In this document: positions 4,251-13,646 of the stretch, piece by piece | Layout of the letters: the number at the start of each line of letters is the position of its first letter | Position numbering within the stretch: position 1 is the stretch's first letter | From: a virus | Length of the DNA: 23,053 bases | Strand: one strand, 5' to 3' | Virus record (IMG/VR): IMGVR_UViG_3300023292_000056 | Coordinates: 1 to 23,053 of that record | The notes under the pieces: model-generated | Database searches by the model: none | Seen by the model: only the letters and a program-made list of their open reading frames with translations | Told to the model about the DNA's origin: nothing | Made by a program: the position numbers and the translations under genes

Positions 4251-4470
4251 TTCAAAATTCACTGGTCCGAGTGGTACATAGTGGTACCATGAGTGGTACT
4301 ATAAAAATTGCTAGAAAGCCTATGAATGCTATATATATATATAGTAGGTACCACTAGACCACTACTATTACTATATTACCCTTATGTGCGAGATATATTT
4401 TTTTACTAAATTAAAAATGTTATCCTACAGATGCCGTTCTACCCTTGAACCAGTGGTACCAGTGGTACCA
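4155..4470 (+). repeat. AGTGGTAC iterons with AT-rich core, candidate replication origin
   Basis: AGTGGTAC occurs on the plus strand at 4155, 4270, 4280, 4292, 4452 and 4461, and on the minus strand at 4348-4355; a partial inverted box (GACCACT) is at 4357-4363. The boxes at 4280, 4452 and 4461 extend to AGTGGTACCA. Between the clusters lie an alternating AT tract (about 4330-4344) and a T-rich tract (about 4395-4410), possible unwinding elements. The 279-base gap between 4250 and 4530 has no gene and follows the replication ATPase. Iterons plus AT-rich DNA next to a replication gene is the classic origin layout; a repressor operator array is the alternative. Confidence 0.65.
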
Positions 4471-4529
4471 TGGCAATTTAGAGCAACAAACAACAGCACT
4501 TTTTTAGGTGCGAATAGGAGGTAACTATT

Positions 4530-4925
4530 ATGAAAGATTACAGTATGTGTATTGATAAAAAAATCATAGATAATGCATCACTTTATAAAGAGGTTTGCGA
4601 TTTATTAATAGCAGATGATTTTATAAACGAAAACGATTGTTGCGAAACTTATCTTAATATCAGGCTTAAAACTATTATAACGGCACTTATTAACAACGAT
4701 GCTGAAACTATTCCTTTACTAGACCGTGAATTAATACAGATGATAGACAAGTACGACGACCCAGAGGAATTTAAACAGGCTTATCTTAAACGTACTGACC
4801 CTAATGAACCAAATCCTTATGCTGGTATCGTTTTTCCGTTTACTAACGATGAACTTCTTAATCGCAAAGTTGCTAAACGATTTGAAGAAACGATTCAAAA
4901 AACTCACACAACGACGCAAACTTAA
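4530..4925 (+). CDS. Hypothetical protein, 131 aa
   Basis: A 131-residue acidic, mostly helical protein of unrecognised family. It includes CIDKKIIDNAS near the N-terminus, a central helical region (LKTIITALINNDAETIPLLD), and a C-terminal Thr/Gln-rich tail. The start ATG follows AATAGGAGGTAACTATT, the recurrent strong initiation cassette of this genome. It is the first gene after the iteron region and lies just before the small-terminase-like gene, so it is either the last replication gene or the first packaging gene. Nothing in it identifies a function. Confidence 0.65.
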   Translation: MKDYSMCIDKKIIDNASLYKEVCDLLIADDFINENDCCETYLNIRLKTIITALINNDAETIPLLDRELIQMIDKYDDPEEFKQAYLKRTDPNEPNPYAGIVFPFTNDELLNRKVAKRFEETIQKTHTTTQT

Positions 4926-4972
4926 ATAAGTTTACTATTACTAAACCGTATTAAAGGAGGTTAGACAAGATT

Positions 4973-5383
4973 ATGGCAACTAAACATAGCACGGAAAACT
5001 TAAAACAGTTTCAAGACCTAACCGAGGCAGAGCAGAGAAAAATATCTACTCAAGGAGGAATAGCCTCAGGAATCGTACGAAAACAAAAAACCTTGTTAAA
5101 AGATGCACTAATAATGATAGGAAAAATGGAATTAGACCTACCAGCAGACGAACAAGCGAAGATGGCACTAAAAACCGTGGGAATGGAAGCAACAGAGGAA
5201 AATATAATGCTCGCTAACCTATCTACAAGATCCAAGACGAACCATAAAGACTTTGTGGTCTATAGGGACACGATAGGTGAGAAGCCTATTGAAAGGGTCG
5301 CTATGGCAGTCCTAGAGGACAAAATGGACAGTGGTGAGATAATGGCTAAATATTTCAACTTTGAAAATGAAGAAGATGACTAG
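4973..5383 (+). CDS. Small terminase subunit-like protein
   Basis: A 136-residue protein. Residues 16-45 (LTEAEQRKISTQGGIASGIV then RKQKTLLKDAL) resemble the Gly-rich basic N-terminus of small phage packaging/DNA-binding proteins (KGG-like). Residues 95-110 contain VVYRDTIGEKPIERV, a signature I associate with Firmicutes phage small terminase-like proteins. TerS recognises the packaging site and hands DNA to TerL. The RBS is AAAGGAGG, 14 bases before ATG. The stop is TAG; the same frame continues 27 more protein-like codons, so the original gene may have been longer. Unusually, TerL lies 3.6 kb downstream. The zinc-ribbon/HTH gene directly before TerL is a rival TerS candidate, so the assignment is moderate. 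Confidence 0.5.
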   Translation: MATKHSTENLKQFQDLTEAEQRKISTQGGIASGIVRKQKTLLKDALIMIGKMELDLPADEQAKMALKTVGMEATEENIMLANLSTRSKTNHKDFVVYRDTIGEKPIERVAMAVLEDKMDSGEIMAKYFNFENEEDD

Positions 5384-5553
5384 AAATCGACAGAAACAAG
5401 CAAACTATCGGAATTTGTCGAAGATAATAGTTGGAAAAAAGAAAAGGAAAAGTATGGCAAACAATAGTAGTTGACTGCTATAACAAAGCTCGCAACATTG
5501 AGAATTTAGACTGGTGTAAAACTGCGTTTATAGAGGAAGACTTTTACGATTAA
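5384..5553 (+). pseudogene. Decayed coding remnant after the TerS-like gene
   Basis: Directly after TAG 5381-5383 the TerS frame continues as KLSEFVEDNSWKKEKEKYGK and hits two TAG codons at about 5465. One frame over, past an A-rich tract (5430-5452), protein-like sequence resumes as VWQTIVVDCYNKARNIENLD then WCKTAFIEEDFYD and ends at TAA 5551-5553. Joined across the A-rich tract, the two pieces read as one continuous charged/aromatic sequence, suggesting a frameshift in a former gene or gene extension. No RBS is visible except an unlikely TTG 5431 start. I do not recognise the family. A short unrelated gene in the second frame is the alternative. Confidence 0.35.
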
Positions 5554-6436: not shown

Positions 6437-6463
6437 TTTGCTACCTCCATTTATTTACTACCT

Positions 6464-6526
6464 GCACGACCTCCAAATCGTGCAACGCTCAGAGCCTAAA
6501 GTCTTTTTATGGTCGCTCTGTCGACC
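6464..6526 (-). promoter_or_regulatory. Paired RNA hairpins between two minus-strand genes
   Basis: On the minus strand, GGTCG-acagag-CGACC (6526-6511) starts at the stop codon of the lipopeptide gene. GCACGA-tttggagg-TCGTGC (6483-6464) follows and displays GGAGG in its loop. Both stems are perfect. They may terminate or stabilise the lipopeptide message and separate its expression from the downstream genes. Confidence 0.45.
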
Positions 6527-8992: not shown

Positions 8993-11083
8993 ATGCAGAG
9001 ATTAGAAGAAATGCTAGCAGTGGTACTGAAAACGGAGAAGTACTGGAAAGAGCGAAAGAAAACTATAAGTGATAAGATGAAGAACCGAAATAACAAGCTA
9101 GTAGCAATGAAAAAAGCTAAGGCAACTCGTTATAGCATAAAGAAAGTAGAAGCGGAGTGGTTTAGTTTAAACAGAGAGTATAACGCAGTACCAGAAACAC
9201 TGGTAGTAGTACGGCATAGGCGAGATGGTCTGCGTGGAGTGATAGGGCTGATAACTGAACTGGAAACTGCTACAGCGGAGAAAGCTGAGGAGTTAAACAG
9301 CTTCGATATAGTATTGAAAAGTTACGAAATAGCAAGGATATGTGATACACTGTACAGTCGTGGAGCTGATTTAATCAAGAATGACCGTAAGTGTTTCAGT
9401 GAGCTAGCGTGTAAGTATGCGAAAACGGTAACGGAAGATTTTATTAAGTATTATTATAAAAAGAAAGTATATTTTAAAATGCTAAAGAAGATGTATCCTG
9501 ATGAAATTGGTGATGATTTATTCGCAAAAAAAATAGAACCTGCGTGGAAAGACTGTTTCGACATAAGGGCAAGGGCGTTTGATTTCGAGTGTTATATGAT
9601 AGCCTTGGAGTGGAATCGTAAGGAACAGGACAGGTTTTATTTGCCTAGAAGAGAGTGCCTAAGGAATTTGGAGGATATTAACGGGCAAAAGGTAGATTTA
9701 GTGGCTGATTATCAGGACTTATTCGATGGTAAACTTGATATACTAACAGTATCACTACCGCAACGGGTTGGAAAGTCAAGGCTGAGTTTGTTTTTTCTGT
9801 CTATGTACTGTTTCAAGAACCTGAAGAACAGCATAGTAGGGATTGGACACAGTGCAGGATTGGTTGGTACGTTTTATGAAGAGATACTAATGTATTTCAC
9901 AACACCTAAAGATTATAGAGTGTTCGAGATATTTAAAGGTCATTTGGTTGGCAAGAATAACGCCGAAAAGGGTACGATTAATATCGACAAGCAGTTGGGT
10001 ATACCTAGTTTTACTTTCAGAAGTATCGATGGTAATATCACTGGGCAGACTGATGCAAGTTTACTGAACTATGTAGATGATTTGATTAAAGACCAAAGCG
10101 AGATAATCAACAAGCGGATAGCAGATAATATATGGAGTAAGTTTAATAATCTGGTTTTAGGTAGAGCAAAACAAGACATACCACTACTGTTTGTAGGAAC
10201 ACTGTGGGGCGATAACTGTCCATTGACAAGGCTGATTGTAGAGTACAAGAACGATAACAACCCTAGGCACAGGTTTCGGCAGTTTGCGTGGTGTAATAGT
10301 AAGTTAGAATCGCAGTTCGATTATCAGTACAAGGTAGGGTTTAATACACGGCATTTCAAGAAGCTGGAACGGACAATGAAGAGAGCTGACCTAGCACTAT
10401 GGAACGCAATGTACATGGGCAAGCCGATACCAAGAGAGGGCAGACCGTTTAATATATTACAGTATTATAAAGACTTGCCAGAGGAAAAGCCTGATTTCGT
10501 GTGTGCGTTCGTTGATGTAGCGGTAGCAGAGGGCGGTGATAAGTATTCTATGCCGATAGGTAATGTGTATGAGGGAACTAAGTCGATATATATACACGAT
10601 GTAATATACAGTAATAGAGGAACAGACTATACGATACCAAGAACAGTTGATAAGATAAAACAGCATAACATAGAGAAAGTGGAGTTCGAGGAAAAAGAGG
10701 GAGCTGTCGGCAAAAAGGTTAATTTCGGTATAGCAAGCAAGGTAGATGAGTTGTTAAGGAAAGATAATTACAGATGCGATATAGGGAATCATAGCGGTTC
10801 TGGCTTGAAGTCGAAGTTATCTAGGATACTGTCTACGGCAAACGAGATACTGGGCATAGAAACTGATTTCGGTTATAAGATATATTATTTAGATGAGGAA
10901 CTAAGAGTAGGGAATATGGAGTATAACGATTTTATAGACTGCGTGCGAAATTTCAGTGAGGTAATAGTAAAGCAAGAAGATGATGCACCGGATAGTTTAA
11001 GTGGTTTGATATCGTATTGCGTAGATGGCAAGAAGAAAGGCAAGGTAGTGGTGTTGGATAAGCGGAAATGGTTGCCGTATTAA
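8993..11083 (+). CDS. terL: Terminase large subunit
   Basis: A 696-residue packaging motor. The first 200 residues are Lys/Glu-rich and helical, an unusually long extension. The ATPase domain has a Walker A-like PQRVGKSR at about 256-263 and Walker B LLNYVDD with acidic residues at about 362-363, followed by FVGTLWGD as a coupling-motif-like strand. The nuclease domain begins with FVCAFVDVAVAEGG (first metal-binding Asp at about 508) and ends with DAPDSLSGLI (Asp at about 667), typical of the RNase H-like terminase nuclease. It cuts and translocates phage DNA into procapsids at the portal. The start ATG follows ATAGGAG by eight bases. It is separated from the TerS-like gene by 3.6 kb, but abuts the zinc-ribbon/HTH gene. 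Confidence 0.93.
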   Translation: MQRLEEMLAVVLKTEKYWKERKKTISDKMKNRNNKLVAMKKAKATRYSIKKVEAEWFSLNREYNAVPETLVVVRHRRDGLRGVIGLITELETATAEKAEELNSFDIVLKSYEIARICDTLYSRGADLIKNDRKCFSELACKYAKTVTEDFIKYYYKKKVYFKMLKKMYPDEIGDDLFAKKIEPAWKDCFDIRARAFDFECYMIALEWNRKEQDRFYLPRRECLRNLEDINGQKVDLVADYQDLFDGKLDILTVSLPQRVGKSRLSLFFLSMYCFKNLKNSIVGIGHSAGLVGTFYEEILMYFTTPKDYRVFEIFKGHLVGKNNAEKGTINIDKQLGIPSFTFRSIDGNITGQTDASLLNYVDDLIKDQSEIINKRIADNIWSKFNNLVLGRAKQDIPLLFVGTLWGDNCPLTRLIVEYKNDNNPRHRFRQFAWCNSKLESQFDYQYKVGFNTRHFKKLERTMKRADLALWNAMYMGKPIPREGRPFNILQYYKDLPEEKPDFVCAFVDVAVAEGGDKYSMPIGNVYEGTKSIYIHDVIYSNRGTDYTIPRTVDKIKQHNIEKVEFEEKEGAVGKKVNFGIASKVDELLRKDNYRCDIGNHSGSGLKSKLSRILSTANEILGIETDFGYKIYYLDEELRVGNMEYNDFIDCVRNFSEVIVKQEDDAPDSLSGLISYCVDGKKKGKVVVLDKRKWLPY

Positions 11084-11565: not shown

Positions 11566-11786
11566 TTAGAAATAAAAAATTATATATAATAACTATATTT
11601 GAAGAGGGAAAAGAGGATAGTGATAAACTTGAATTTATCTGTACAAGCTTTAAAAAAGCAAAGCATGCTATACTAAACCATAAAAGCGGATATTGTCCTG
11701 GCAATCATTGTGTTTGCTTCCATATAAACGAGGTTATTGCAAATACAAATATAAAACATAAAATAGCGATAGAAATAACCACTTGA
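11556..11786 (+). CDS. Small Cys/His-rich protein, 76 aa
   Basis: The frame starts with GTG 11556, overlapping the end of the HExxH gene by ten bases, with only GGA directly before it, so expression probably depends on coupling. The product has an N-terminal beta-rich part (LYIITIFEEGKEDSDKLEFI) and a Cys/His cluster GYCPGNHCVCFHINE at about 47-61. Its stop TGA lies inside the -35 box of the ncRNA promoter. Family is unknown. Confidence 0.5.
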   Translation: MFVIRNKKLYIITIFEEGKEDSDKLEFICTSFKKAKHAILNHKSGYCPGNHCVCFHINEVIANTNIKHKIAIEITT

Positions 11787-11811
11787 CAGCTAAAACAAAG
11801 TATGCTATAAT
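11783..11811 (+). promoter_or_regulatory. Perfect-consensus sigma-A promoter for the ncRNA/tRNA unit
   Basis: TTGACA (11783-11788), a 17-base spacer and TATAAT (11806-11811), with TGC directly before the -10 box (extended -10). It is as strong as such promoters get, and no coding frame with an RBS follows before the terminator at 11996-12027. Confidence 0.9.
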
Positions 11812-11817
11812 AATAAA

Positions 11818-11913
11818 CATAAATAACTTGTGTTACTGCTTAGGTATCGCTACGGCAAGGCTACGGCAGTAACAACCATACAGGCAAAAGCGGTGTTTCA
11901 CAGCCATATAAAT
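11818..11913 (+). ncRNA. Structured leader RNA upstream of the tRNA
   Basis: The predicted transcript starts near 11818. TGTTACTGC (11831-11839) pairs perfectly with GCAGTAACA (11866-11874) and is followed at once by ACCA (11875-11878), like a tRNA acceptor end on a minihelix. The loop contains GCTACGGCA twice (11849-11857, 11860-11868). A smaller GTG-TTT-CAC hairpin lies at about 11893-11901. No RBS or start codon leads to a frame. It may be a processed 5' fragment, a degenerate second tRNA-like element, or a functional small RNA. Confidence 0.55.
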
Positions 11914-11988
11914 TGCGTGGTATAACAGTGGCAGTTCGTTGGGTTCATAACCCAAAGGTCATCGATTCAAATCCGATTCCCGCTACCA
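11914..11988 (+). tRNA. tRNA(CAT) with initiator (fMet)-type features
   Basis: All arm and loop lengths are canonical: acceptor 11914-11920, D-arm 11923-11937, anticodon arm 11939-11955 with CAT at 11946-11948, variable AGGTC, T-loop TTCAAAT (11966-11972), acceptor 11978-11984, A73 and an encoded CCA. Three initiator hallmarks are visible: no Watson-Crick pair at 1:72 (T-T), A11:T24 in the D-stem, and three G:C pairs (GGG/CCC) closing the anticodon loop. Mismatches at 5:68, 10:25 and 53:61 suggest decay or a specialised molecule. It belongs to its own short transcription unit. Confidence 0.75.
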
Positions 11989-11995
11989 AATAATT

Positions 11996-12027
11996 AATAG
12001 AGGTATTATTATAATTGCCTCTATTTT
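11996..12027 (+). terminator. Terminator of the ncRNA/tRNA unit
   Basis: AATAGAGG (11996-12003) pairs with CCTCTATT (12018-12025) around an AT loop, ending in TTTT. It lies eight bases after the tRNA CCA and immediately before the next promoter, closing a unit of about 210 bases. Confidence 0.75.
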
Positions 12028-12061: not shown

Positions 12062-12093
12062 TAATATTGTTGAATAATATAGGAGGTAACCGT

Positions 12094-13464
12094 ATGTCCA
12101 CTAGACCAAGTCAGTTCGGGATTAATCGCATATTTACTGATGAAACAGTAAGCGAAAGTACCGTTATAAGCATACTAGAAAAGACATTAGAGAAACATAG
12201 AATAAACGCCACCTATATAGAAAAGTTAGATGAATACTATAAAGGCAACCAGTACGATAACATAACAAGTAGCGGTCGTAACATTGATGAAAAGAATGTA
12301 GTTAATCTAACAAAGGTTTTTATAGATACAGTTGTATCAATAACATTAAACAAAGAAATAACATATGTAGCTAGAAAAGATATATTTAAAGATGATGTCG
12401 AGAAGATAGCGAACTATATGCGTGATGAAGATGAACATACTATAAACTTAGACACTTGTACTAATATGGTTGTAGATGGAATAGGTTATCAGTACTGTTT
12501 ACAGAACGGTGAAAACGACATTACACCGCACAGTCCGTTCACTATAGGCTTGTTTTCTCCTAAAGATACATACTTAGTAGAAAGCCTTGATATAGGCAAT
12601 CCAGTGGTATTGAGTGTGCATATAAGCGAGTATGATGACATTAAACAGTATGCTTGTTTTGACAATAAATATAAGTATATAATTAAGAATAGCAAGAAAA
12701 GTGGCAAGCTCGAAGTAACCGAAACCACACTACACGATTTGCCGTTCAACCCTATACAGTGCTATAACAACGATATGTACAGATTATCAGCAGTGGCAGA
12801 TTTAATGGGGTTGCAAGACAGTTTGAACACTTCTATTAGTAACTATAACAACGATGTACTGATAAAAATAAACCAAATATTAGTTATTATAGGTGCTGAA
12901 CTTGCTCCAGAAGAGGCTAAGAAACTTAAAGAAAGTGGAGTATTGCAGATAACTGGTAAAGATGGTGTTAAGCAAGATGTTAAGTTCGTAAGCAGTCAGT
13001 TAGACGGCAGAATTATTGATTTTGTCAAGAACACTGTAGAGATGATGTGTTTAGTAAGTGGTTGTCCTAGCCAAAACGCAGGAAGCCTAGAAACTGGCAA
13101 GGCGGTCGAAACAGCTAATGGACATACGATAGCTAATTTTGTTAGTAACCGCAAGGAGCAAGCGTTCCATAAGCCTAAAAGACAGCAACTAGATAATATT
13201 ATAGCTATATTGAAACGCAAGAAAAAAATAAGCAGCGATATAACAGCAAACGATATAGATATTAAGTTTGATAAGAACAGACTTACTAGCATAAGTGATA
13301 ATGTTATTAATTTAGTTAAGTTACTTGATGCTGGGATGGAAGAGTATGATGCACTTGTCGTTTGTCCGTTTATAGATGACATATCAAGTGTTGCAGATAG
13401 AATTAAAGAAAACAGAGAAAGAATGGGGCTTAAAACTGGTAAAACCGAAGAGGTTATAGTATGA
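12094..13464 (+). CDS. Portal protein (SPP1 gp6-like)
   Basis: A 456-residue protein of the SPP1-type portal family. It has an N-terminal helical entry (ILEKTLEKHRINATYIEKLD), LDEYYKGNQ, the NLTKVFIDTVVSITLNKE segment typical of SPP1-like portals, and a C-terminal region QNAGSLETGKAVETANG then NRKEQAFHK that corresponds to the long stem/tunnel helix. Twelve copies form the ring at the capsid vertex through which TerL pumps DNA. ATG 12094 has a perfect AGGAGGTAAC seven bases upstream and replaces a longer TTG-initiated frame from 12067 that would begin inside the promoter leader. Its last four bases overlap the next ATG. Confidence 0.9.
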   Translation: MSTRPSQFGINRIFTDETVSESTVISILEKTLEKHRINATYIEKLDEYYKGNQYDNITSSGRNIDEKNVVNLTKVFIDTVVSITLNKEITYVARKDIFKDDVEKIANYMRDEDEHTINLDTCTNMVVDGIGYQYCLQNGENDITPHSPFTIGLFSPKDTYLVESLDIGNPVVLSVHISEYDDIKQYACFDNKYKYIIKNSKKSGKLEVTETTLHDLPFNPIQCYNNDMYRLSAVADLMGLQDSLNTSISNYNNDVLIKINQILVIIGAELAPEEAKKLKESGVLQITGKDGVKQDVKFVSSQLDGRIIDFVKNTVEMMCLVSGCPSQNAGSLETGKAVETANGHTIANFVSNRKEQAFHKPKRQQLDNIIAILKRKKKISSDITANDIDIKFDKNRLTSISDNVINLVKLLDAGMEEYDALVVCPFIDDISSVADRIKENRERMGLKTGKTEEVIV

Positions 13465-13646
13465 AAAAGATAAGATGCCAAAACTGTCCCAAAGGCATAC
13501 TGTTCGCTATTTATGATAAAGCCACTAAAGGCAAGATAGAGGGCAAGTGCAGTTGGTGCAAGGCAATATATATTTACGACTTGGAAACTGGGGAGTACGA
13601 GCTAGTTTCAAAAAATGTTAGAGAAAACATAAAAACGCAAGAATAG
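13461..13646 (+). CDS. Com-like zinc-ribbon protein
   Basis: A 61-residue protein: MKKIRCQNCPKGILFAIYD at the start, with CxxC at residues 6-9, and GKIEGKCSWCKAIYIY with the second CxxC at about 31-34. This spacing and the IExKCxxCK motif match the Com family of Mu-like phages, where Com binds mom mRNA to switch on its translation. Here no mom gene is visible; the gene overlaps the portal stop (ATGA) and precedes the scaffold gene, so it may regulate structural gene translation or assist DNA/RNA binding. The family call rests on Cys spacing and is good; the function is inferred. Confidence 0.7.
   Translation: MKKIRCQNCPKGILFAIYDKATKGKIEGKCSWCKAIYIYDLETGEYELVSKNVRENIKTQE

Follow-up and report, generated by a model that had tools for sequence, protein, structure and literature searches.

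A divergent initiator-type tRNA gene with its own promoter between the terminase and portal genes of a phage contig

The 23-kb IMG/VR phage contig analysed here (23,053 nucleotides, hereafter the window) carries between its terminase and portal genes a tRNA gene that has the identity positions of an initiator, a perfect promoter of its own and a divergent sequence with a C32→U change and three broken pairs. The favoured explanation, to which we give a probability of roughly 40%, is that of a divergent initiator tRNA which supplements or replaces that of the host. Such a phage-owned gene would have been captured from a bacterial tRNA-fMet, and its own strong promoter beside the late (head) promoter would drive a short transcript. 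Trimming of this RNA would yield an initiator tRNA whose CCA end is encoded and which would supplement or replace that of the host while the late genes are expressed; as a divergent copy it may be resistant to nucleases that target the near-invariant anticodon arm of the host initiator. Expression, processing, charging, formylation, use in initiation and the link to nucleases are parts of this model that we infer. An initiator-type tRNA in a phage is of a kind already known and the window is not a first; judged from the sequence, its gene is likely a variant rather than a mere member of that kind, because it forms a solitary unit, has a weak cloverleaf and stands in a particular context, the terminase-portal interval or slot.

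Organization of the transcription unit

The upstream boundary of the slot is the terminase large subunit gene (8993-11083; phrog_38, 2.3e-27), and the portal protein gene (12094-13464; phrog_64 portal, 4.5e-40), preceded by the Shine-Dalgarno sequence AGGAGG at 12082-12087, lies downstream; these genes and all parts of the unit are on the + strand. An earlier note on this DNA had proposed a self-contained unit beginning with a perfect sigma-A promoter and a structured leader of about 95 bases, both of which are recovered. The promoter P1 (11783-11811) is of the extended -10 sigma-A type and consists of TTGACA at 11783-11788, a 17-nt spacer and TATAAT at 11806-11811, scoring 12/12, with TGC before the -10 element so that the TG stands one base 5′ of it. 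With a start placed about 7 nt after the -10 element, the leader covers 11818-11913 and contains a 10-bp hairpin (11831-11874) with two gcUACGgc repeats, followed by ACCA at 11875-11878. The hairpin, folded within 11828-11875, reaches -19.6 kcal/mol (z=-3.72, 0/200 shuffles as stable). Together with the ACCA it has a superficial resemblance to an acceptor minihelix, but the idea of a second tRNA-like domain in the leader is unsupported, as the hairpin does not score significantly with the tRNA model (4.4 bits, E=0.31).

The tRNA occupies 11914-11988, with the anticodon CAT at 11946-11948 and the encoded CCA at 11986-11988, and is followed by a weak, terminator-like hairpin of the intrinsic type with a UUUU tail (11996-12027). 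Its 10-bp stem-loop at 11996-12025 has an energy of -11.4 kcal/mol (z=-3.29) with only four U after it and was not accepted by the terminator scan; a terminator function is plausible but weak. The independence of the unit claimed in the note is backed by the two perfect promoters and less so by its 3′ end. The second promoter, P2 (12033-12061, 12/12), belongs to the structural operon and lies directly 5′ of the portal gene; the unit stands immediately ahead of this promoter, as the note had stated. Perfect promoters number two in the window and 0.06 per shuffled window. The only near relative is one second IMG/VR contig, in which the whole unit is identical and which therefore adds no evolutionary information on it.

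Elsewhere in the window, 13461-13646 holds a gene for a small Com-like zinc-finger translational regulator (phrog_6417, 2.9e-7), and similar short Cys-rich ORFs were seen by eye 5′ of the portal gene in several relatives. A Pistol self-cleaving ribozyme is found at 6456-6526 on the - strand (Rfam RF02679, 67.8 bits).

Initiator identity, ancestry and divergence of the tRNA

The reading of the element as a tRNA of canonical length with a CAT anticodon is confirmed by a match to Rfam RF00005 at 11914-11985 (41.5 bits, E=1.4e-7), above the gathering score of 29, and the tRNA reaches 64.6 bits with a covariance model built from 20 tRNAs, itself included; ARAGORN did not call the tRNA at 11914-11988 in the window. 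It measures 75 nt including CCA and has a D-loop of 7 nt. The three initiator hallmarks named in the note are all present: U1:U72 is unpaired; A11:U24 is found, as in 16/16 sequences of an alignment (A5, columns 11:25) of 16 initiator-type tRNAs, ten of them chromosomal; and the anticodon arm, TTGGG-TTCATAA-CCCAA, is intact with its GGG/CCC stack and CAT. Also kept are G2:C71, C3:G70, G4:C69 and A73. The divergence lies in the anticodon loop, where TTCATAA replaces the initiator-type CTCATAA (C32→U), and in three broken pairs, 5:68 (U-C), 10:25 (U-C) and 53:61 (A-C), which fall in the acceptor, D and T stems, respectively, and were already listed in the note.

The cloverleaf is not the favoured fold of this tRNA, as by secondary-structure energies of the unmodified RNA, without tertiary contacts, it lies at -7.0 kcal/mol and the best fold at -15.8. 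The resulting gap of 8.8 kcal/mol compares with 0-3.0 in the ten chromosomal initiators, 0-1.7 in four phage initiators and 5.3 in an anticodon-less tRNA-like element of the related phage L017, and makes the window tRNA by far the least stable of the 16 initiator-type tRNAs compared.

The ancestry of the gene is best seen in two chromosomal tRNA-fMet genes of Bacillota. One of them, L202, is the chromosomal initiator found to be closest and agrees with the window in U1:U72 and the stem TTGGG/CCCAA, the other, L203, shares the D-loop AGTGGCA, and A11:U24, CAT, A73 and CCA are common to both and the window. Since L202 unites the unusual 1:72 positions with an identical anticodon stem, initiator ancestry can, on sequence grounds, be taken as secure, and the source of the gene was probably a bacterial tRNA-fMet from Bacillota. 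The best identity to any chromosomal initiator found is only about 82%, and U32, the broken 5:68, 10:25 and 53:61 pairs and the weak cloverleaf set the window apart from L202 and L203. The pair 12:23 is A-U in the window and G-C in all ten chromosomal initiators of the alignment, a change on both sides that points to selection on the structure after capture, and pairs of the T stem are likewise compensated with respect to single relatives. G53:C61 is nearly universal; A53:C61 nevertheless also occurs in L207, a tRNA-Met from a Bacillota tRNA cluster, hence the break is tolerated elsewhere and is not fatal by itself.

A search of a phage collection with the window unit, the region of the human-gut phage L015 and a host tRNA-fMet brought up initiator-type tRNAs in isolated phages of Stenotrophomonas, Klebsiella, Mycobacterium, Vibrio, Clavibacter, Xanthomonas, Gordonia, Caulobacter and others. 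The statement of the note that phages usually carry elongator tRNAs is therefore a fair one that needs the qualification that a minority of isolated phages have initiator-types. These (Stenotrophomonas QDWS359, annotated as tRNA-fMet, Myrna, nt-1, CN1A, XbC2, GodonK, BL47 and others) share A11:U24 and CAT with the window tRNA, which is less stable than they are, and several of them belong to tRNA clusters in larger phages, whereas the window gene stands alone between terminase and portal with a promoter of its own. Most of them, like the window, depart from the host anticodon-arm core GGGCTCATAACCC, which is altered in 14/15 phage initiator-types compared with 0/11 chromosomal ones (Fisher p=1.6e-6, a test that ignores host taxonomy and shared descent) and in 18/22 after seven phages were added; L224 and L225, which are probably host DNA, were excluded from the phage set. 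The GGG/CCC stack also varies in some rhizobial and mycoplasmal chromosomal initiators. U32 recurs in L216-L218, and the complete loop TTCATAA is common to the window, QDWS359 and VBv52. In Bacillota genomes the exact C32 pattern was found in 107/149 and the U32 pattern in 0/149. The record MT837581, one of the matches (H15), was set aside for its resemblance to actinobacterial host DNA; in three phage-labelled records, MT837581, OQ572408 (Pseudomonas phage Y6) and MT835736, the tRNA-fMet region resembles host chromosome.

VapC cleaves tRNA-fMet between A38 and C39 (PMC4105405). This cut is beside the 32:38 pair, in which the window has its C32→U change. Because the altered loop adjoins the cut site and is absent from the 149 Bacillota genomes, the roles proposed in the note, boosting initiation or replacing a cleaved host tRNA, may still apply. 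Changes in the anticodon loop of phage tRNAs have been proposed as an escape from anticodon nucleases, and tRNA-fMet is generally avoided by phages when its anticodon is the target (PMC10264068).

The terminase-portal slot in related phages

The terminase-portal interval was compared in 131 loci obtained from terminase searches, a few of which are duplicates of one contig. The best promoter scores 11-12 of 12 in 47 of the 131 intervals and in none of the equal-length stretches inside the terminase gene, so that a strong promoter in this interval is a feature of the group; what is uncommon about the window is the separate RNA unit ahead of the slot promoter. A tRNA or tRNA-like RNA occupies the slot in five lineages, namely the window, the human-gut phages L013, L015, L016 and L017, the rumen-type phages L110, L115 and L118, and the loci L117 and L148. 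In related prophages, whose terminases reach 68% identity, the slot is free of tRNAs. The slot tRNAs of the relatives have identities other than initiator or are non-decoding forms. In L110 an element at 4570-4631 is without anticodon arm (32.1 bits) and another at 5089-5157 has no usable anticodon (24.0 bits), whereas in L148 (1450-1506, 20.6 bits) the acceptor, the T-arm and ACCA are present, the rest is reduced and the anticodon lost. Anticodon arms are abnormal in the tRNA-likes at L015 5600, L016 2546 and L017 6440, and a UACG tetraloop replaces the anticodon loop at L017 6633-6708. A further form, at L169 5393-5435, is an anticodon-less, CCA-ended acceptor/T-arm minihelix of 43 nt located 5′ of the capsid genes; a strict minihelix search gave 0 matches in six 1.2-Mb Markov controls. 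The window tRNA, with its anticodon arm intact, shows none of the loss of arm or loop that defines the non-decoding forms.

In all four gut phages the slot promoter is followed by a structured noncoding RNA of about 600 nt between terminase and portal (L013 5058-5680, L015 5428-6046, L016 2390-2978 and L017 6280-6875). The consensus fold, drawn from four sequences only, comprises 108 pairs, of which 28 changed on both sides, and includes two tRNA-like domains, a first one and a tRNA domain with conserved helices on either side. Within the first, invariant columns amount to 25/32 in the acceptor/T half and 10/45 in the D/anticodon part. Beyond the tRNA domain the RNA has no Rfam family match, a DNA search for the first domain in 394 genomes of one bacterial order had no hit, and the matches of an 18-base motif of the RNA in a genome contig scan were chance hits in protein-coding DNA.

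Several side observations concern the same interval. In L110 a noncoding stretch of about 1 kb (4380-5500) contains six elements, tRNAs or tRNA-like, and some of these have no anticodon arm that could be used. The motifs CTCCTTTC/CCTCCTTT, which resemble the 3′ end of 16S rRNA (anti-Shine-Dalgarno), recur in the leaders that follow the terminase promoter in L015, L016, L049, L110 and L148; an anti-Shine-Dalgarno role for the CCTCCTTTC motifs of the relatives was dropped, the window being without them. A terminator-like hairpin with a T-run stands just 5′ of the portal gene in L003, L010, L012, L086, L121, L123, L154 and L197, often after a promoter, and may be an attenuator or a small RNA in the slot.

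Alternative readings and known systems

The covariance match, the intact state of all initiator features tested, the perfect promoter, the compensated 12:23 pair, the loop change not seen in the 149 Bacillota genomes, the departure of phage initiator-types from the host core and the position of the VapC cut argue for the favoured reading; the energy gap, the missing ARAGORN call and the three broken pairs argue against it, as do the avoidance of tRNA-fMet described in PMC10264068 and the finding that slot tRNAs of relatives have other identities or are non-decoding. The weak cloverleaf is the main evidence for decay or for a non-decoding use, and the caveat of the note that the tRNA might be decayed or a decoy has gained weight from it and from the clearly non-decoding tRNA-likes that relatives keep in the slot. 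A captured host tRNA-fMet in decay, with the initiator hallmarks as leftovers, would account for the same three features that weaken the favoured reading, yet the both-sided change at 12:23 relative to every chromosomal initiator compared, the T-stem compensation, the intact identity positions and the preserved promoter speak against decay, and one of the breaks, A53:C61, is seen in a chromosomal initiator, L207; we regard decay as somewhat unlikely. Temperate phages often integrate in tRNA genes, and such frequent use of tRNA genes as integration sites is the general ground for reading the element as an attachment-site remnant that restores the host tRNA-fMet gene after integration. This reading is highly improbable: the window proteins scanned, which cover part of the ORFs of a possibly fragmentary contig, include no integrase family, the element sits within the head genes with its own promoter, and no chromosomal initiator found is nearly identical to it.

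The element could also be a non-decoding tRNA-like RNA kept for its acceptor/T-arm half, whether as a decoy or sponge for tRNA-attacking defences, as a processing signal for RNase P/RNase Z or as a domain of a larger RNA. The occupants of the same slot in L110, L148, L015, L016 and L017 that have no usable anticodon, the L169 minihelix with its clean Markov controls and the greater invariance of the acceptor/T half in the first gut domain all fit such a role. The window itself speaks otherwise: an intact anticodon arm and intact initiator positions would be needless in a decoy or processing element, the leader hairpin does not score as tRNA-like, and with a terminator-like hairpin and a new promoter 3′ of it the tRNA need not process the head mRNA. 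We regard this alternative, like decay, as somewhat unlikely. A broader proposal, which we consider unlikely, is that the slot is a dedicated RNA site where captured tRNAs evolve into non-decoding mimics that occupy host enzymes or defence nucleases. The mimics would then be CCA-ended acceptor/T-arm minihelices or tRNA domains in the ~600-nt RNA, directed at targets that act on tRNA acceptor ends, and the weak initiator tRNA of the window would represent an early or intermediate stage.

To our knowledge, phage tRNAs have been without a settled function for decades. The usual explanation by codon usage does not apply to an initiator tRNA, and a solitary, divergent one with a strong promoter beside late genes thus bears on the idea of nuclease evasion. 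The anticodon-less mimics that related phages have at the same spot suggest that it is the acceptor/T-arm half for which some phage tRNAs are retained. This idea can be tested directly on defences directed at tRNA tails; the authors of PMC12851939 knew of no viral counter to these. The loss of whole arms in the L110, L148 and L169 tRNA-likes recalls the armless mitochondrial tRNAs of nematodes, where D- and T-arms are absent (PMC7730189, PMC12221289), although in L148 and L169 it is the anticodon that is lost and the acceptor and T-arm that stay. Among large phage RNAs, GOLLD and ROOL resemble the gut relatives only, in that these have a ~600-nt structured RNA with tRNA domains, and GOLLD linkers sometimes hold tRNAs (PMC12286853); homology is not claimed, the GOLLD/ROOL Rfam models match neither the window nor the gut relatives, and the window unit measures only some 200 nt. 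Other RNAs seen in related phages are a RAGATH-18 RNA (L012 5006-5078), a type-P5 twister ribozyme (L063 239-300, - strand) and a GP20-b RNA (L052 7077-7136).
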